From positions 1-52,385 of IMG/VR virus record IMGVR_UViG_3300022602_000137: DNA of 52,385 nt. One strand, written 5' to 3'. Numbering within the stretch: position 1 is the first letter of the stretch; every line of letters begins with the position of its first letter. A program made the translations under genes and the position numbers. The notes below the pieces were generated by a model that did no database searches, was not told the DNA's origin, and was given only the letters and a program-made list of their open reading frames with translations. Below, piece by piece: positions 11,096-46,184 of this stretch. The DNA is from a virus.

Positions 11096-11263
11096 CTAGA
11101 TTTCCGTACGACCAATAAACCATCTGCGAGCAAATTTGCTATACCTTACTCGATATAATTTATTACCTAATCTAATTCTAAATCCAAAACTACTAATGCT
11201 AGTTAACGGATAAAAATTTATACCGTTACTAACTTTATCACCTTCGTGTCTAAAATATATCAT
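11096..11263 (-). CDS. Short basic protein, 55 aa
   Basis: Its ATG overlaps the stop of the QueE-like gene (TGATG) and its stop lies 9 bases before the next ATG, so it fits the operon exactly. The protein is Arg/Tyr/Phe-rich (RIRLGNKLYRVRYSKFARRW), which suggests a small nucleic-acid- or membrane-binding beta protein. Family not recognised. Confidence 0.65.
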   Translation of the reverse strand: MIYFRHEGDKVSNGINFYPLTSISSFGFRIRLGNKLYRVRYSKFARRWFIGRTEI

Positions 11264-12117
11264 CAAGTTCCCCACTCATTTTTAAATAACGGTACTTGTA
11301 GTCTGTCGCTATAACGTAAGCCATGTTTCATAGCCATGTCAGCAACGGCTCTGTTATTAAGAGCATAAACGCTTTCAACACCACCAACTGGCATTAAATA
11401 GACATGTCCTTTAAATCCTGCGGCACGATATTCGCTTGTGGCTTTAAGAGCGTAATCTCGATCTGCCTCTGTAGAAATAACAAACTTTAAGTATGCTGTG
11501 CCTACTTGTTCATATTCGCAAACTACTTCTGGCAGTATTGCTTCTTCCCACTTTTCTCCACTACACGGAAGTTTAGCACTTACGCTAAATGTAATCTCGC
11601 GATTCTTCCACTTGCTCCATTCTTGTAAATATGATTTGAACTCTGGAGTTAATTTTTGAGTACCGTTTGTCTCAAACGTAATCTCTTTTAGTCCTGCCAT
11701 TTTAGGATGATCTAACAAGTCTGGATAAGCACGTTGCCAACCTAACAAAGGCTCGCCACCTGTAATAACCAGATGTTCATCTAACCATTCTCCGTGCGGA
11801 AGAATTTCCATAATACGGTCTGTAATGGCATCGCTAGTAAGCATTGGCGATAAATCTTTAAAAGTAGGATGCCAACTAGCATAGCTATCGCAACCTGTAG
11901 AAACTAAAGGAAGTTCGTTATAAGTTTGCCACTTATTATACTTGATTTGTTTCTCAGCTAATACATCTGCTTCTCCGCTTATTGTACCCAGCGGCATGCC
12001 AAAGCCAGCACATTTAAAGTTACAACCGAATGTACGTAAGAAAACAGACGGAACACCCATGTACCGTCCTTCACCTTGAATTGAATAAAACAATTCTGCT
12101 ATTTTTAATTTACTCAT
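11263..12117 (-). CDS. queE: QueE-like radical SAM enzyme (7-carboxy-7-deazaguanine synthase)
   Basis: Expected to turn 6-carboxytetrahydropterin into 7-carboxy-7-deazaguanine. The N-terminus KIAELFYSIQGEGRYMGVPS is typical of QueE, and ITGGEPLL matches its GGEP motif. The cluster cysteines are split: Cys32 and Cys36 (GCNFKC) are followed, after 39 residues, by Cys76 in GCDSYASW, which aligns with the usual CDTxYxW. An insertion therefore lies between the second and third ligands. From memory the same arrangement occurs in T4-like cyanophages. 284 residues; ATG at 12117 overlaps the upstream stop. Confidence 0.8.
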   Translation of the reverse strand: MSKLKIAELFYSIQGEGRYMGVPSVFLRTFGCNFKCAGFGMPLGTISGEADVLAEKQIKYNKWQTYNELPLVSTGCDSYASWHPTFKDLSPMLTSDAITDRIMEILPHGEWLDEHLVITGGEPLLGWQRAYPDLLDHPKMAGLKEITFETNGTQKLTPEFKSYLQEWSKWKNREITFSVSAKLPCSGEKWEEAILPEVVCEYEQVGTAYLKFVISTEADRDYALKATSEYRAAGFKGHVYLMPVGGVESVYALNNRAVADMAMKHGLRYSDRLQVPLFKNEWGT

Positions 12118-12578
12118 ACACAATCACCTTGTTCCGCTAATTTACCTGTTGCTGACTTTTCTTTACGGTCTTCTTTAAACAGTTTAACATCTTTAATAGC
12201 AGATTTCAATGTTTCTGAGTAGTTAAGAGCTTGTTGTTCGGTCATAGTGACTGTAGTTTGGGCGGTAATAGTACCGGTTATCCAAACTTCCCAAGTTAAT
12301 TTAGCTTTACGAATTAAACTGTTAATAAGATCTTTCCAAAACCAATCAAATTCTTCTAACCAAACATTTTTAATATCATAACGTTTTTCAAATGTGTCAG
12401 TCCAGTAGTTTGTTTTAACAGTGGAATAGATGTTTACGTTAACACCCATCTCATCTGCTTCGACTTCTACTGTTTGATCGTGATAATCTTGTCCGCAACC
12501 ACAAGTAACTTTATACCACTTACTATTACCAAAATCGTTTGTTTTTAAAATGCCTTCTGCCGGTGTTTGTGCTTTCAT
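12114..12578 (-). CDS. Unknown phage protein, 154 aa
   Basis: Begins with a CGCGQDYHDQ segment that may bind metal. Trp-rich and helical parts follow, with a Lys/Glu-rich end. Coupled by ATGA overlaps to both neighbours, so it is expressed with queE-like and folE genes and might serve the same pathway, but no motif proves this. Confidence 0.7.
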   Translation of the reverse strand: MKAQTPAEGILKTNDFGNSKWYKVTCGCGQDYHDQTVEVEADEMGVNVNIYSTVKTNYWTDTFEKRYDIKNVWLEEFDWFWKDLINSLIRKAKLTWEVWITGTITAQTTVTMTEQQALNYSETLKSAIKDVKLFKEDRKEKSATGKLAEQGDCV

Positions 12579-12793
12579 ACTGATTCACCAAACCATTCGT
12601 CAACCATTTGTTCTGCTTCGTGTTGTGTTAACGCAAGAACAAATATACGGGCCAGTTGTCCCTGAGTATGTTGTACGCTAAATCGAACAACACCCTGTAA
12701 CGGAATATCGTTAAATTCACGCTCAACTATGAATTCTTTTAAATTTTTAGCACGATCGATTAATTGATCAGTTAGGTCTTTTGCTGTTGTCAT
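12575..12793 (-). CDS. Unknown phage protein, 72 aa
   Basis: Small soluble protein with a basic N-terminal helix and a beta-type middle (GVVRFSVQHTQGQLARIFVLAL). It starts within the end of the membrane-coil gene and ends in an ATGA overlap with the next gene. Function unknown. Confidence 0.65.
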   Translation of the reverse strand: MTTAKDLTDQLIDRAKNLKEFIVEREFNDIPLQGVVRFSVQHTQGQLARIFVLALTQHEAEQMVDEWFGESV

Positions 12794-13022
12794 ATCTAGC
12801 CTTTTCTAATTCTAATTTTCTTATTTTGGATTTTAATTCCGCAACATCTTGCGTTAAACTTTGATTTAAATTTTTTGATATTTTTAATTCTTCAGTCAGT
12901 TCAGTTTCGAGTTCTTTTAACAACCGCTTTTTATATTCACGGTCGCTGTCAAATCTCCAATTATGGCCAACAAGGATTCCTAAACCCATTACAATTAAAA
13001 GAAGTATTAAATCACTAGTCAT
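12768..13022 (-). CDS. Membrane-anchored coiled-coil peptide, 84 aa
   Basis: One N-terminal transmembrane helix (LILLLIVMGLGILVG), then about 55 residues of Lys/Glu/Leu coiled coil. The layout resembles small phage inner-membrane proteins. Start overlaps the folE stop. It overlaps the following gene by 26 bases, which makes the exact start of that gene less certain. Function unknown. Confidence 0.65.
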   Translation of the reverse strand: MTSDLILLLIVMGLGILVGHNWRFDSDREYKKRLLKELETELTEELKISKNLNQSLTQDVAELKSKIRKLELEKARYDNSKRPN

Positions 13023-13783
13023 CGCGGAGCAAACTCCTGTTGTAGTTTAATATTGTCAAAGAATTCTTTCTTTGTATTACCGTCGGTATTGAACGCACCT
13101 TTGAGTACTGTTGTCTGTGTTAGACTAGAGTGTGCCATAATACCGCGATTCTCGCAACACCCGTGAGTTGCTTGAATGTATACTGCTACGTTTTCTGATT
13201 CTGTGGCTTTTTGGATTTCCCTAGCAATGTCATTACAGAGTTCTTCTTGTAACGTGCCACGGCGAGCACACCACTGAGCGATCCGAGTATACTTAGATAA
13301 ACCGATAAGTTTGTTAGCGGCGATAATGCCAATATAAGCAACACCACTAACAGGCTGATGGTGATGACTGCACATGCTTCGTAGCTCAGAGCGAACCACA
13401 AGCATACCCTCATAGCGGTCTTCTGAATCGTTTGGAAATGCTGTTGCGTCTGGTCCTGCTTCATAACGTCCTGCCATTATTTCATTAAAATACATTTTAG
13501 CTAGTCGTCTAGCAGTGCCTTTTGAGTTAGGATCGTTTTCACGATCAATAAGCAATCGATCTAATACTAGTTCAAAGGCCTCTGTTGCTTCATCGATTAA
13601 TCGTTCTTTTTTCTGTTCGTCGACATATTCGCTAATATTGTCTCCAGCCCAGAAACGTTTGCCTTCGCGTTTCATTTGAAAACGAATGACATCTGCTAGA
13701 TGTGCTTCTTTGTAGCCTTTGTCGCTCATATCATCTGCGCCTTTAAGTACGTTTTGAAGGTCTTCTGTTGTAAATGTTGTCAA
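13019..13783 (-). CDS. folE: GTP cyclohydrolase I
   Basis: Converts GTP to dihydroneopterin triphosphate, the first step of both folate and 7-deazaguanine synthesis. Zinc ligands are visible: Cys138 and the following His residues in RSMCSHHHQPVSG, and the Cys in ATHGCC (209-210). KLIGLSKYTRI and RGIMAHSSLTQT are standard FolE segments. The best start is a TTG at 13783 with GGAG nine bases upstream. At 254 residues it carries a longer N-terminus than bacterial enzymes. With QueD-like, QueE-like and DpdA-like genes nearby, the deazaguanine route is the likely purpose. Confidence 0.93.
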   Translation of the reverse strand: MTTFTTEDLQNVLKGADDMSDKGYKEAHLADVIRFQMKREGKRFWAGDNISEYVDEQKKERLIDEATEAFELVLDRLLIDRENDPNSKGTARRLAKMYFNEIMAGRYEAGPDATAFPNDSEDRYEGMLVVRSELRSMCSHHHQPVSGVAYIGIIAANKLIGLSKYTRIAQWCARRGTLQEELCNDIAREIQKATESENVAVYIQATHGCCENRGIMAHSSLTQTTVLKGAFNTDGNTKKEFFDNIKLQQEFAPR

Positions 13784-19192: not shown

Positions 19193-19436
19193 TGCTTTTC
19201 CTTTCTTCCCAATACTTGATCATACGATTAACATCTTCCATTCTTTCTTGTACAACATCTGGTGCCGCACGTTCTAGCATTTTTAAATTATGATAACTAG
19301 GATAATGACGCAAACACCACCGTGCTTGCTCACGTATTTCTTTCGGAACTCGAGGAGTTTTTTGAGGATTAAGTAAATCTGTCAAAAATTCTTCTGTTCG
19401 TTGTAAACTTCTAAAACGTTCGTCGGGCAATGTCAT
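19182..19436 (-). CDS. BPSL0761-like small protein, 84 aa
   Basis: The sequence TLPDERFRSLQRTEEFL then PQKTPRVPKEIREQARWCLR followed by HYP matches, from memory, the short BPSL0761-type proteins of Burkholderia-related and other proteobacterial genomes, whose function is unknown. It is out of character with its phage neighbours and suggests capture from a proteobacterial host. It overlaps both flanking genes. Confidence 0.65.
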   Translation of the reverse strand: MTLPDERFRSLQRTEEFLTDLLNPQKTPRVPKEIREQARWCLRHYPSYHNLKMLERAAPDVVQERMEDVNRMIKYWEERKSNEA

Positions 19437-21142
19437 AGCTCAAATAATGATTCGTTGAAAACAGGTTTAACCGGTTCTTTAACTACTTTTTCAATGGTTA
19501 AATTTCCTTCAAATTCAAAGTGTACATCAGCCATAGCACTAGCATTGGTAATCCTATCGCCAGTATTACCCCTAGTACCAATAATACGATCAAAGTAATC
19601 ACCATAAAATTCAACCATATCTAACGCATCTTGTCTATTATCTAGACTAAAGATTAAATCAACAATATCTTTAAATTTATTTGGTGCTGGGCTATAATCT
19701 CTGTGTGTCTTTGTTTCTGCTGTTGTAGCATCTAGCATCGCAGGAATAACACCCGAATCACTTTGACGATTAGCTTCTTGTACAGCATTACAGTGCATCC
19801 ATACATTATGACCCATCATGATAGCATAGGTAAAACTATCCCAGCTAGTACGTCCTTCTTTACCTACTTTATTTAGGTCGCCTGGTTTATAGATACAAAT
19901 ATCTTTCATTTGGACTTGATCTATAATAGGGCTAGATTCAAATTTATCAAAAATACCATCTTGTACTACAGCGTCTTTAAAAAGTCTTGTGTCTGTTGCG
20001 TATTTCTTGTCGTCTGCAGAAGCCTGCATACGGTAGACCCATTTGTCTGCGTGTGGTGTTTCGGTAGCCATGTAGATTTGTCCGTTCGCTGTTGCGAGGA
20101 AGGGACTGGCGCAATCAAAAGAGATGGTAAATTGTTCATTATGATATTTCCTTACAGCACGTTGAATGTCGGTTAATAAAACAGCCCACTCTAATTTAGA
20201 GGTGCCCAAGAAGTGCATCCAGTCTTGATGACCTTTTTCAAGAAGTCCGTCGAAACGTAAATCCACTAATCTCTTTAATACTAGGTGTACGTCACACATA
20301 TTCTGTCCACCCATAGCCCAACCATTAAATGGTTTATCATACTGCTTAGGGTCACAGAATTTTTTCATCTCATTATACCAGTTATCTGCGTCTGTATGAT
20401 TCTCACCTTGTAACACGTTTAAGAACTTACAAGCACCTGTTCGATGTTTAATCCAATATTCATTATTATATTTGGTAGCATCAACCGCTTCTTGATAACT
20501 TGATACACCTGTAGCTTTAATACCTTCTGGGCTACGGCATACCCATGCTGGGATATCGAGTACCATGCCATAATCCATATACGCATCCATCCACGCAAGC
20601 ACTTGCTCGCGCTTCTTCTGTGCCGCATCTAATTGTGCTTGATATAGTTTAGGATGATCGATTTTAGTATACTTTGGATTACCATTCTTATCTGTCTTAG
20701 GATGACCTGTAGGATGTAGTTGTGGGACTAGTTCAACGCCTCGAGCAACAGCTTCGGCCATTCGCTGAGCCACTACTGGTCCTGTTGGATCATTCCACTC
20801 ACCTTCCCACACACCTTTACCAATCTGGAATCCGCCTGAATCTCCTAGTACCCAACTAGTAGAACGATCTCTATTACGAAACATATCTTCGCCGTCATCT
20901 TTCTTAGTCATATCTAAGTTAGCATGGCCTGCCGAGTACAAACAATGATCATAATAAAATAACGCATTAGGATCTAAGTAGTTCATTGCTTCAACACCCA
21001 TTGGGCCAAAACTTGCCGGTACACGAGCCGGATCTACATAGTTACCAAAACGTTGTTTGCCTATAAATGTACTATAAAAACCAGATGTTGCTGGTAAAAA
21101 GTACGCATAATCATTTTGTGTTGCTGTTAAATTTTTATTCAT
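19433..21142 (-). CDS. dpdA: DpdA/TGT-like base transglycosylase
   Basis: A 569-residue protein built like tRNA-guanine transglycosylase, the fold used by phage DpdA to swap guanine for a 7-deazaguanine base. LGDSGGFQIG (Asp about 101) matches the TGT substrate-binding DSGGFQ. FLGTSKLEW then SFDCASPF (Asp about 343) matches the segment with the nucleophilic aspartate (FDCVxPTR in TGT). GWAMGG matches the GGLAVGE loop. The ATG at 21142 overlaps the upstream stop; the longer frame was not used. It is longer than bacterial TGT, as phage DpdA can be. DNA rather than tRNA as target is inferred from phage precedent. Confidence 0.7.
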   Translation of the reverse strand: MNKNLTATQNDYAYFLPATSGFYSTFIGKQRFGNYVDPARVPASFGPMGVEAMNYLDPNALFYYDHCLYSAGHANLDMTKKDDGEDMFRNRDRSTSWVLGDSGGFQIGKGVWEGEWNDPTGPVVAQRMAEAVARGVELVPQLHPTGHPKTDKNGNPKYTKIDHPKLYQAQLDAAQKKREQVLAWMDAYMDYGMVLDIPAWVCRSPEGIKATGVSSYQEAVDATKYNNEYWIKHRTGACKFLNVLQGENHTDADNWYNEMKKFCDPKQYDKPFNGWAMGGQNMCDVHLVLKRLVDLRFDGLLEKGHQDWMHFLGTSKLEWAVLLTDIQRAVRKYHNEQFTISFDCASPFLATANGQIYMATETPHADKWVYRMQASADDKKYATDTRLFKDAVVQDGIFDKFESSPIIDQVQMKDICIYKPGDLNKVGKEGRTSWDSFTYAIMMGHNVWMHCNAVQEANRQSDSGVIPAMLDATTAETKTHRDYSPAPNKFKDIVDLIFSLDNRQDALDMVEFYGDYFDRIIGTRGNTGDRITNASAMADVHFEFEGNLTIEKVVKEPVKPVFNESLFEL

Positions 21143-21495
21143 TATTTCACCAAATGTTGAGCAAGCACCATACAACTAATCCAAGCCCATATAGTGTTAA
21201 ATCCTACTAGAGTAGGCAATAGTTTCTTCTCACTAGCCCAAATAAGTGTTAGGCTTGTTGCTAATGTGAAGAAATATAACCACCAAATTTGTATACCAAA
21301 AATTAGACCTGGAACAATGATAACAGCCTTAGCAAACCAGCTTAAGAATTCTACTGTGTTATAGCTTACCCAATACTCTTTTTTAAACCACATAGCATAA
21401 CATTCCTTAACCTTAGCGAATGTAATATGTCGGTATACAACTAATATCAGTAATAGCCAAACTATTGAAGCAACTGCTATTTGTATAAGGTTCAT
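21142..21495 (-). CDS. Multi-pass membrane protein, 117 aa
   Basis: Four hydrophobic segments are visible (about 4-21, 47-66, 70-85, 95-113) with many Trp and Tyr residues, so this is an integral inner-membrane protein. The start follows the sliding-clamp stop by one base, without a clear Shine-Dalgarno, so translational coupling to gp45 is likely. Function unknown; transporter-like, exclusion or host-takeover roles are possible. Confidence 0.6.
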   Translation of the reverse strand: MNLIQIAVASIVWLLLILVVYRHITFAKVKECYAMWFKKEYWVSYNTVEFLSWFAKAVIIVPGLIFGIQIWWLYFFTLATSLTLIWASEKKLLPTLVGFNTIWAWISCMVLAQHLVK

Positions 21496-43516: not shown

Positions 43517-44247
43517 TATTTCCTCTCTAACGCAACGGCCCAGCCGTTGTTTTCAAAAATGAAAGTATTGCCAATTTTATTAATATTATAATTGCCAATA
43601 ACTTTAGTTAAGAACATAACCTCTGCCATGTCCTTGCTCTCTAGCACGATCGGACCTGTTACCGTATCGTATACTTCTTGTTTACTACCACTATTTACTA
43701 TTTCAAATGTTACAGGTCCGCTAAATGTTCTATTAAATGTGATTGATTCATCTAATACAACGATATTATCTGCGTAACTACCTCTAAAGAAATTACTAAA
43801 ATTGTCTAGTAGATACTTTTCAGTGGCAATTTCATAAGACTCTTTGTCTTTAGGAACTGCAGCATTTAAATTCTCTTCAGTAGCTAGCTCGCTTTTAAAA
43901 CTTTTAAAATAACGGAAGCGTAAATCTTCTAATCCAGTGACCTTTTTAACACCTTCTGCGATTTCAAATATTTGTTGACCAATGTGACGACTGCGTTCGA
44001 TCTCAACATATACACGCCATTTGCCATCATCAGTTTCGCCCGGAGTAACGTCTGAGTCTAGCACAAAGTTATAGCCCATCTCAATAAAATTTTCTAAATC
44101 TTTGGCGGCATCTTCGTGATCAACAACAAAACTTATTACACATATATCTTTGTCGTCACCGATTTTGCTTTTGAAACTATCAATTTCGAAAACTTTTTTA
44201 ACTAGATGTTTTAAATCATTAGGACGTAGTGCTTCTGTAATATTCAT
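43516..44247 (-). CDS. Conserved T4-like phage protein, 243 aa
   Basis: The N-terminal half (FEIDSFKSKIGDDKDICVIS, KDLENFIEMGYNFVLDSDV, then TPGETDDGKWRVYVEIERSR) strongly resembles a protein I recall from T4-like cyanophages, always without a function. The C-terminal half is beta-rich. Starts in the stop of the upstream gene (TAATG), so the pair is coupled. Confidence 0.8.
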   Translation of the reverse strand: MNITEALRPNDLKHLVKKVFEIDSFKSKIGDDKDICVISFVVDHEDAAKDLENFIEMGYNFVLDSDVTPGETDDGKWRVYVEIERSRHIGQQIFEIAEGVKKVTGLEDLRFRYFKSFKSELATEENLNAAVPKDKESYEIATEKYLLDNFSNFFRGSYADNIVVLDESITFNRTFSGPVTFEIVNSGSKQEVYDTVTGPIVLESKDMAEVMFLTKVIGNYNINKIGNTFIFENNGWAVALERK

Positions 44248-44819
44248 TACGCTGGTGCTCCGCCTGTTGGTGCTCCACCCGGTGCGGCCATTGGTGCGGC
44301 TCCTTGCGCTGGAGGAGCAACTGGTGCTTGTGGTGCTGGTTGTCCTGCTGGAGTTGTACTATCAGTTAGTACAGCTTCGTTATTATCATTTTTCATCTTG
44401 TCCATATAACCTTTATAAACATCAAAGGCTACAGTTTTAGGCATCTGTACTTCTACAATCCATATAGGTTTACGGTCTAGTTTACCTTTCTTGCTATTAG
44501 GACGTAGGTCGTCTGGAGTACGTATTTTACGTGGTTCTAGCAAATGACTCTTTTGGAATGTAACTTTGCAGCCTAATTCTGTTAAACGCTTACCTGCTAC
44601 TGGATTAGGCATTTTATCTGCTTCCCACATAAAACCAGCAGTAATCCAATGACGATCAACACGCGGTCCATAAGCTAATTCGCCGTCTATCCAATTTTCG
44701 TATACATAAACATCAAGCTCTTCAAAAACTCGTTCAAAATCCTTCAATACAGCAAGGCTACTGTTGTTTTCGTATAGTTCTTCTATGTTTTTAATTACGT
44801 CTAAAATATCGTGGTGCAT
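44247..44819 (-). CDS. Conserved T4-like phage protein, 190 aa, with Pro/Ala/Gly tail
   Basis: About 145 folded residues (WIDGELAYGPRVDRHWITAG, PKTVAFDVYKGYMDKMK) followed by a low-complexity tail of Ala, Pro and Gly. The folded part resembles conserved T4-like cyanophage proteins of unknown role that pair with the 243-residue gene. AGGAC lies before the ATG. The gene is divergent from phoH. Confidence 0.8.
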   Translation of the reverse strand: MHHDILDVIKNIEELYENNSSLAVLKDFERVFEELDVYVYENWIDGELAYGPRVDRHWITAGFMWEADKMPNPVAGKRLTELGCKVTFQKSHLLEPRKIRTPDDLRPNSKKGKLDRKPIWIVEVQMPKTVAFDVYKGYMDKMKNDNNEAVLTDSTTPAGQPAPQAPVAPPAQGAAPMAAPGGAPTGGAPA

Positions 44820-44909
44820 GTTGTAGTCCTAGATGATCTTATACTTATTTAGCTGGTTTAAAATCATAACGTATAACTTTATTATTTTGTGTATTCGTTA
44901 AATAATAGT

Positions 44910-44973
44910 GTAGGACCTCTGTAGTTATCGGGGCGGTCGCTACAAGTCCTGCTTTTTTAACCTAAAGTAGGAG
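44910..44973 (+). promoter_or_regulatory. Structured phoH leader: terminator-like hairpin that can switch to mask the ribosome site
   Basis: GTAGGAC (44910-44916) pairs with GTCCTGC (44946-44952), with an inner stem TGTAG (44920-44924)/CTACA (44940-44944), and is followed by TTTTTT (44953-44958), so it looks like an intrinsic terminator. The same GTCCTGC can instead pair with GTAGGA (44967-44972), which holds the Shine-Dalgarno of phoH. The two pairings exclude each other. A weak promoter (TTAGCT at 44849, TATAAC at 44872) could start the leader near 44884. Confidence 0.55.
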
Positions 44974-44981
44974 CAACTTAG

Positions 44982-45701
44982 ATGAGTAAAAGAGTGAAGA
45001 AACGCTTTACATCAGAAGTTAACATAATTGATTTTCATCAACCATACCTTCCTTCAAAGAAGCCGCGTGTAAGTCTTTATCCACGCAATTCCAACCAAGA
45101 AACATATATCCGTAAATTACAGGACGAAAGCAAAAGTATTATTTTAGCTATTGGCCCTGCTGGTACGGGTAAGACTATGTTGGCTGTACAAGCTGGAATT
45201 AAAATGTTTCAAGAAGGTAAAATTGATAAAATCGTTGTGACAAGACCTGCCGTTTCTGTAGATGAAGATTTAGGATTTTTACCAGGTACGCTAAATGAAA
45301 AAATGGCTCCTTGGACTCGTCCTATATTTGATGTTTTTCAGGAATATTACCAACAAAAAGATATAGCAAGAATGCTAGAGGAAGGAACTATTGAAATAAG
45401 CCCATTGGCCTATATGCGAGGCCGCACATTTAAAAACGCATACATCGTCGCAGACGAATGCCAGAACACAACAGTAAATCAAATGAAGATGCTACTAACC
45501 CGACTAGGAGAGGGCTCTAAGATGGTAGTCACAGGAGATTTAGCTCAAGCAGATAGATTAAGTGATAATGGATTAATAGATTTTTGTAATTTATTAGCCG
45601 GCCGTCCTGGACTACATCATATCGATGTTATACAGTTTGACGCCAAAGACATCGAACGCCATAATGCCGTGAAGGAGGTGTTAGCGGTTTATGGAGACTA
45701 A
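44982..45701 (+). CDS. phoH: PhoH-like ATPase
   Basis: P-loop ATPase of 239 residues: GPAGTGKT (58-65), then VVTRPAVSVDEDLGFLPGTL, IVADECQN (Walker B) and MVVTGDLAQAD, all PhoH signatures. PhoH-like genes are common in marine phages; their exact role, perhaps RNA handling or phosphate stress, is unsettled. It is the only plus-strand gene between 2461 and the right edge, stands alone behind a structured leader, and ends at a strong terminator, so it is regulated on its own. Confidence 0.95.
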   Translation: MSKRVKKRFTSEVNIIDFHQPYLPSKKPRVSLYPRNSNQETYIRKLQDESKSIILAIGPAGTGKTMLAVQAGIKMFQEGKIDKIVVTRPAVSVDEDLGFLPGTLNEKMAPWTRPIFDVFQEYYQQKDIARMLEEGTIEISPLAYMRGRTFKNAYIVADECQNTTVNQMKMLLTRLGEGSKMVVTGDLAQADRLSDNGLIDFCNLLAGRPGLHHIDVIQFDAKDIERHNAVKEVLAVYGD

Positions 45702-45711
45702 TAGGATGTAA

Positions 45712-45737
45712 AAAAAGGACTCTTAGGAGTCCTTTTT
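45712..45737. terminator. Bidirectional terminator between phoH and dCMP deaminase
   Basis: Perfect 11-bp stem, AAAAAGGACTC and GAGTCCTTTTT, loop TTAG, with A- and T-runs on both sides so that it can stop both converging transcripts. The last codons of the deaminase gene lie within it. Confidence 0.92.
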
Positions 45738-46184
45738 CATTTGCGGAACTTGCGTAACTGCTACCTTTGACTGTTCGAGGAAACGTATTCCATCTTCGCT
45801 ACGATAAGCGTCACGATAAAAGACACTCCGAATGCCAGACTGGTATATAAGTTTGGCGCAATCCAAACAAGGAGCGTGAGTAATAAACATATCAGCATCG
45901 AGCCCAGACTCATTGCTTTTAGCCAACTTAGCGATTGCATTTGTTTCAGCATGTAATACCTCCGGTTTAGTTTTTAAAACTGTTTCAGGTTCATCATCAC
46001 CATTATCTGTAAGTATTTCATATTCACAGTCGTTATCCCAACCTGCCGGCATACCATTGTAGCCAATTGAAATAATCCTATCGTCCTTGACAATAATAGC
46101 ACCAACATGTAGTCTACGTGCATGGCTGAGCTCTGCAAATATTTCAGCAGTATTCATGTATGCGTAGATAAACTTTGGTTTCAT
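45723..46184 (-). CDS. dCMP deaminase
   Basis: Zinc-dependent deaminase giving dUMP for ThyX. The catalytic motifs are HAE (78-80) and PCLDC (105-109). NGMPAGWDNDCE is typical of the deoxycytidylate class. 153 residues, slightly shorter than T4 Cd. Overlaps the clamp-loader stop (ATGA). In T4 the enzyme is allosterically controlled by dCTP and dTTP. Confidence 0.93.
   Translation of the reverse strand: MKPKFIYAYMNTAEIFAELSHARRLHVGAIIVKDDRIISIGYNGMPAGWDNDCEYEILTDNGDDEPETVLKTKPEVLHAETNAIAKLAKSNESGLDADMFITHAPCLDCAKLIYQSGIRSVFYRDAYRSEDGIRFLEQSKVAVTQVPQMKKDS

Follow-up and report, generated by a model that had tools for sequence, protein, structure and literature searches.

The mRNA of the λ cIII gene adopts two conformations, and metastable 5′ hairpins are known from the mRNA of the MS2 maturation gene and from hok mRNA. 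The leader of the phage phoH gene analyzed here resembles these RNAs in having two competing folds, one of which hides the ribosome site, but it is unrelated to them in sequence, exact copies of GUAGGA stand on either side of its shared strand, and the two folds are nearly equally balanced in most leaders. Translational riboswitches have the same layout as the phoH leader, a 5′ unit enclosed by a stem (P1) whose 3′ strand is common to the helix sequestering the Shine-Dalgarno sequence. The phoH leader differs from them in that it has no Rfam class and is confined to the phoH gene of one phage lineage.

In T4, the ribosome sites of gene e, soc, 49 and I-TevI are hidden in a helix of the phage mRNA (PMC3014915), which is also predicted for phoH. 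The gene e and I-TevI leaders are moreover tied to late promoters, the late promoter TATAAATA being named in the same review, just as the phoH leader adjoins a T4-type late promoter. For gene e and I-TevI, the late promoter coincides with the 5′ arm, and late transcripts are without the helix (PMC3014915). In the phoH leader, the Shine-Dalgarno sequence likewise pairs with an upstream strand, but the TAAATA box is found 4–5 nt before P1, upstream of both sequestor arms; the late start is thus predicted to precede every arm, and both exclusive folds would be contained in the late transcript. The T4 gene 32 pseudoknot and gene 43 hairpin are, like the phoH leader, gene-specific phage structures preceding a gene for a nucleic-acid-binding protein. 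Their proteins occlude the site by binding (PMC3014915), whereas the phoH leader has two built-in exclusive folds. A riboswitch-type RNA in aquatic phages, the glutamine riboswitch of the marine methylophage Melnitz and of pelagiphages, belongs to another family and to another gene, ssrA (PMC9004378), and the phoH leader gave no match to the Rfam glutamine riboswitch. According to a review of post-transcriptional control in T4, no riboswitch has been functionally characterized in this phage, and related phages are a possible source of candidates (PMC3014915).

We propose that the late phoH mRNA begins with a conserved leader which acts as a translational strand-exchange switch, its balance probably being shifted by something that recognizes the conserved P2 loop. 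We give this reading a probability of about two in three.

The phoH gene and its late promoter

The window, i.e. the whole stretch of DNA analyzed, is a 52,385-base phage fragment (a virus record) that encodes a family-B DNA polymerase, a clamp loader, a ClpA-like ATPase, an endolysin and virion proteins. A tRNA search of the sequence found none. The minus-strand segments 11263–13783 and 19433–21175 carry GTP cyclohydrolase I (PF01227), a QueE-like radical-SAM gene and a large tRNA-guanine-transglycosylase-like ORF, for which the Pfam search gave no hit; together they suggest 7-deazaguanine DNA modification. The phoH gene (Table 1) had been described as the lone plus-strand gene. This holds locally, but not for the window as a whole, since plus-strand ORFs are also present at 9–2460. 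A divergent TAAATA box on the minus strand (44846–44851) serves the virion structural gene at 44247–44819, also on the minus strand; it is 47 bp away from the box of phoH, and the two boxes form a putative bidirectional late promoter region. Downstream, the sequence AAAAAAAGGACTCTTAGGAGTCCTTTTT at 45710–45740, where phoH and the dCMP deaminase gene converge, resembles a bidirectional intrinsic terminator.

Table 1 Features of the phoH locus (positions in the window)
Feature	Position	Strand	Remark
T4-type late promoter element TAAATA (GTTAAATA)	44899–44904	+	Predicted transcript start 44910, from box spacing
P1a, 5′ strand of P1 (GTAGGAC)	44910–44916	+	Partner 44946–44952 in the fold with free Shine-Dalgarno
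P1a plus 44917	44910–44917	+	Partners 44935–44938 and 44940–44943 in the fold with hidden Shine-Dalgarno
P2 hairpin	44920–44944	+	44920–44925 with 44939–44944; apical loop has the conserved UAUC..GGCGGUC
P3, inside P2	44927–44929 with 44935–44937	+	Predicted helix
GGUC-R-CUAC, alternative partner of GUAGGACC (44910–44917), stem AS	44935–44943	+	Fold with hidden Shine-Dalgarno; fold prediction
P1b, shared switching strand (GTCCTGC)	44946–44952	+	Substitutions keep pairing with both partners
Sequestor helix, 5′ arm (9 bp)	44947–44955	+	Minimum-energy fold and comparison
Sequestor helix, 3′ arm AAAGTAGGA	44964–44972	+	Covers the Shine-Dalgarno; comparison and shuffles
Shine-Dalgarno AGGAG	44969–44973	+	8 nt upstream of the start codon
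phoH	44982–45701	+	PhoH-like ATPase, 239 aa; Pfam PF02562 E 6e-73, phrog_170 E 8e-77

From 44910, the leader reads GTAGGACC TCT GTAGT TATC GGGGCGGTC GCTAC AA GTCCTGC TTTTTTAACCTAA AGTAGGAG CAACTTAG ATG. The hexamer GTAGGA at its 5′ end (44910–44915) is repeated at 44967–44972, and GTCCTGC is followed by six T (44953–44958). T4 late promoters have the sequence TATAAATA, centered near −10. In the phoH leaders, the end of TAAATA (rarely TAAGTA) precedes the first G of P1 by 5 nt in 98 of 106 leaders and by 4 nt in the other 8, and the position of the T4 box places +1 at this G (44910), so that RNA and switch would begin with the same base. Within the 110 nt preceding 56 ORFs of the window, the late box was found 10 times in sense and 3 times in antisense orientation. 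The preliminary description had delimited the element as 44849–44981 and its leader as 98 bases; the conserved element proved to be shorter (44910–44981), and the leader predicted from the late start comprises about 72 nt. In nearly all of the leaders compared, the Shine-Dalgarno sequence is part of GTAGGAG or GTGGGAG.

Two exclusive folds and their conservation

In the upstream pairing, positions 44910–44916 form 7 bp with 44946–44952 (hairpin energy −19.9 kcal/mol, z −2.8), whereas the downstream pairing joins 44947–44955 with 44964–44972 in 9 bp and belongs to the fold of lowest energy computed for the leader as a whole. The two helices cannot coexist because 44947–44952 is common to both. 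The earlier proposals that GTCCTGC pairs either upstream or with the strand holding the ribosome site, and that the duplication of GTAGGA makes the folds exclusive, were thereby borne out in their coordinates. GUAG occurs three times and CUAC or CUGC twice in the leader, and the two folds differ by strand exchange. The fold with the hidden site probably gains a second alternative stem, AS, which would make the arrangement that of a strand-exchange translational switch. Two exclusive conserved folds, of which one frees and the other masks a signal for expression, are a mark of riboswitch mechanisms and were found in the phoH leader.

The balance of the folds is close. The best P1 fold of the window has −26.0 kcal/mol and the best sequestor fold −27.1 kcal/mol, and the difference of P1 minus sequestor over 107 leaders (best constrained folds) was +0.7 ± 2.2 kcal/mol, with either sign; all these are model values which leave out tertiary contacts. 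Folding of successive prefixes of the window leader showed that P1/P2 is complete at 43 nt (−18.7 kcal/mol) and that the sequestor fold is best only from 64 nt, where the lowest-energy fold joins stem AS (44910–44917 with 44935–44943) to the sequestor. This order of folding, together with the pairing of the first mRNA base that P1 would provide and the similar logic of the MS2 maturation gene and hok mRNA, favors a device with no effector: the 5′-terminal P1 would form first and leave the Shine-Dalgarno free, the RNA would then relax to the sequestor so that only young mRNAs are translated, or P1 would guard the 5′ end from decay. A relaxation timer, however, works only if the sequestor has the greater stability, yet in a good many leaders it is P1 that is favored, and a pure timer has no need of conserved loop bases. 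We consider this explanation fairly improbable. An RNA thermometer, with a sequestor melting as the temperature rises, would suit the A+U-rich helix over the Shine-Dalgarno, and λ cIII mRNA also works via two alternative folds. The share of the sequestor predicted by the energy model for the window nevertheless amounts to 0.998 at 4 °C and still to 0.90 at 45 °C, a weak dependence on temperature in the model. We regard a thermometer as very improbable.

Taken alone, the sequence of the window does not carry the switch pairing beyond chance: a shared-strand switch of at least 7 and at least 7 bp was held by 384 of 2000 dinucleotide shuffles (19%), and the folding of the whole leader gave a z of only −1.9. 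The conservation over 121 distinct leaders, by contrast, is judged to carry it far beyond chance. The loci were collected by PhoH searches of IMG/VR, with the window and successively more distant relatives as queries, and by a pattern scan. A phoH match was obtained at 510 loci, many of them from the same contigs, and the promoter, leader and start were intact in 498, which represent the 121 distinct leaders; the element was present in all of these, and the remaining loci were cut by contig ends. Hundreds of freshwater phage contigs carry the element, always before phoH, with PhoH identity to the window down to about 73%. Since the loci selected by PhoH were not picked by their RNA, the conservation is not a selection bias. 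The 43-base core shows a mean identity to the window of 91%, compared with 51% at four-fold degenerate sites of phoH, which indicates strong constraint on the leader.

P1 pairs in all seven positions in 103 of 107 leaders. Changes on both sides (U-A to C-G, G-C to A-U and A-U to G-C) produced the compensatory variants GTAGGGC/GCCCTAC, GTAGAAC/GTTCTAC and GCGGGAC/GTCCTGC, and the stem has matched extensions (GA/TC and C/G; forms GTAGGACGA/TCGTTCTAC and GTAGGACC/GGTCCTAC). The P1 covariation is thin, with one both-side cell in the 54-row alignment and a shuffle test that was not exceeded, because the 5′ strand of P1 is nearly frozen. Similarly, the P2/P3 helix is paired in 99.2% of cells and, being mostly invariant, provides little covariation evidence. 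The sequestor is paired in 97% of cells and three of its pairs are changed on both sides (compensatory variants CTACATT/AATGTAG and CTACTAT../..TAGTAG); none of 500 shuffles matched the observed pairing or covariation score, and both measures also exceeded the slid controls. The linker between the sequestor arms varies in sequence and length (7–17 nt) and has 3.18 extra pairs compared with 0.65 in shuffled sequences (means). Compensatory changes are accordingly seen in both stems of the alignment, the point on which the preliminary description had let its proposal depend. The substitutions in P1b are almost all C to U or A to G, wobble-neutral towards both partners; P1b is constrained by both, which is the double constraint expected of a real switch. 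Stem AS is paired in 98.8% of cells and is nearly invariant, with zero covariation. The otherwise odd invariance of GGUC would be explained by the need for it in stem AS, which re-forms in a shifted register (GGGACU/GGUCCC) in the divergent leaders L391 and L478. We regard stem AS as likely.

The terminator-like stem with six T, the attenuator and the short RNA from early termination suggested earlier are not supported by the comparison. An intrinsic terminator or attenuator, or a small RNA ending at 44955–44960, would fit the window, where P1 is a hairpin of −18.7 to −19.9 kcal/mol followed by six T, but the six T are particular to that sequence. The longest T run is at most 4 in 91 of 121 leaders and at least 6 in just 12, the median 8-nt tail has 4 T, and in variants the stem is followed by CATTCCCC or CTTAACC. 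With a T-run that is not conserved, the element is not a conserved terminator; the T stretch after the stem is accounted for by its pairing with the A-rich bases before the Shine-Dalgarno. As 80 of 107 leaders are without ATG, GTG or TTG before phoH, there is no conserved leader peptide. Leader-peptide attenuation was rejected for the same lack of a conserved short ORF, and we regard a terminator, attenuator or small RNA as very improbable.

In the leaders L391, L478, L324 and L331 (383-kb contig), P1 and P2 are fused into a single 13-bp hairpin; the conserved UAUC..GGC loop is gone and GGUC is retained, and the variant is possibly a constitutive form. In L391 and L478, this hairpin is 5–7 kcal/mol more stable than their own sequestor fold, and these two may not switch and may be a natural constitutive-on form.

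Distribution of the element

Rfam 15 gave no match at gathering score in the window, the best chance match (E 1.1) being far below gathering. This agrees with the earlier statement that the leader fits no known riboswitch class, and the description of a riboswitch-like leader with two exclusive folds before a separately controlled phoH is upheld, both helices being conserved and outside the Rfam classes. The covariance model search found one clear copy per genome in all 21 whole phage records of the lineage, where the next hits were either weak or due to the hairpin being read in antisense. All 117 testable core matches stand before phoH. A search of 257 Gb of genomes from bacteria and archaea gave no plausible match to the strict core; its sole hit, in a bacterium, appears antisense inside a coding gene and is taken as a chance match.

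The element was not found before the phoH genes of the nearest isolates, Phosso, the phi30-2/PA5oct group and Atu_ph07 (PhoH 49–56% identical), nor in the phoH leaders of the other distant contigs compared. A 24-bit match in phi30-2 lies antisense within a coding sequence and was likewise judged to be due to chance. Most of the distant phoH genes, including the PA5oct-like, Atu_ph07 and Phosso ones, have an [AT]TAAATA-like box upstream. In Pseudomonas phage phi30-2 (1204–1381), phoH is a lone plus gene among minus genes and follows ATAAATA, and its leader forms a different, simple hairpin (ATGTAAAGATTAGATCTTTATACAT). In another contig (IMGVR_UViG_3300020172_002480), the minus-strand phoH (775–1554) is interrupted after ...SPLAYMRGR by AEPITALIPTPTGTQKMGDLKVGNLVLGSNG..., and the stretch inserted at this conserved motif resembles the beginning of an intein (Hint domain).

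These data bear on the possibility that P1/P2 is the aptamer of a metabolite riboswitch, in which a small molecule stabilizes P1 and turns phoH translation on. In its favor are the compactness of the stem, an apical loop (UWAUC..GGCGGUC) that is highly conserved and for the most part unpaired, and the textbook P1/anti-P1 expression platform. The element is, however, absent from Rfam, its strict core has no plausible match in the searched cellular genomes, and it is limited to one gene, one phage lineage and one copy per genome. Known classes usually precede several genes; occurrence before several pathway genes is usual for riboswitches, although not essential, and here only phoH was found. 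Variants with a changed loop also occur (L391 and L363). We hold a metabolite riboswitch to be improbable, and the single-gene, single-lineage distribution would argue somewhat against any ligand-binding riboswitch.

A literature search found no paper describing an RNA element before phage phoH. The type of mechanism, a translational switch with a sequestor, is already known. As far as our tools show, the novelty lies in the RNA family, in its confinement to phages, in its predicted position at the very beginning of a late transcript and in its link with phoH.

Proposed mechanism and effector

Late in infection, transcription from the T4-type late promoter would begin at 44910, so that the first mRNA nucleotides are the 5′ strand of P1 and P1/P2 can form first during transcription. 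In the presumed ON fold, P1 would enclose the P2 hairpin, the Shine-Dalgarno would be free and phoH translated. Opening of P1 would lead to the OFF fold, in which GGUC-R-CUAC in the P2 arm captures the 5′ strand; P1b, set free, would close on GUAGGA, mask the Shine-Dalgarno and switch phoH off. A factor which binds the conserved P2 loop, or remodels the RNA, probably sets the balance.

Provided that the leader is a switch, the effector that we favor is PhoH itself, in a feedback by an RNA-acting ATPase, or another RNA-binding protein of the phage or host; this is a tentative assignment, put somewhat below even odds. PhoH is a P-loop ATPase, and its family has been discussed in terms of RNA helicases. 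A kinetic or mRNA-stability device without an effector would, on the same premise, be rather doubtful, and a small metabolite is unlikely. The restriction to one gene in one lineage makes feedback by a protein, PhoH or other, seem likelier than a metabolite.

A conserved RNA with two folds, always standing before phoH, is probably a new on/off switch for PhoH production. It may even be, although we would not wager on it at evens, a phage-born class of translational RNA switch absent from cellular genomes, in which the 5′ end of a late mRNA gates one gene by exchanging strands, either as a new riboswitch class or as the feedback operator of PhoH. If so, it would for the first time give direct access to the signals or targets of phage PhoH. 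The phoH gene is among the commonest auxiliary genes of aquatic phages, and a dedicated, strongly conserved switch which this lineage has before phoH alone would tell at what time PhoH is required and perhaps which stimulus calls for it. The trigger of the switch would be a clue to the role of PhoH and makes this question testable.
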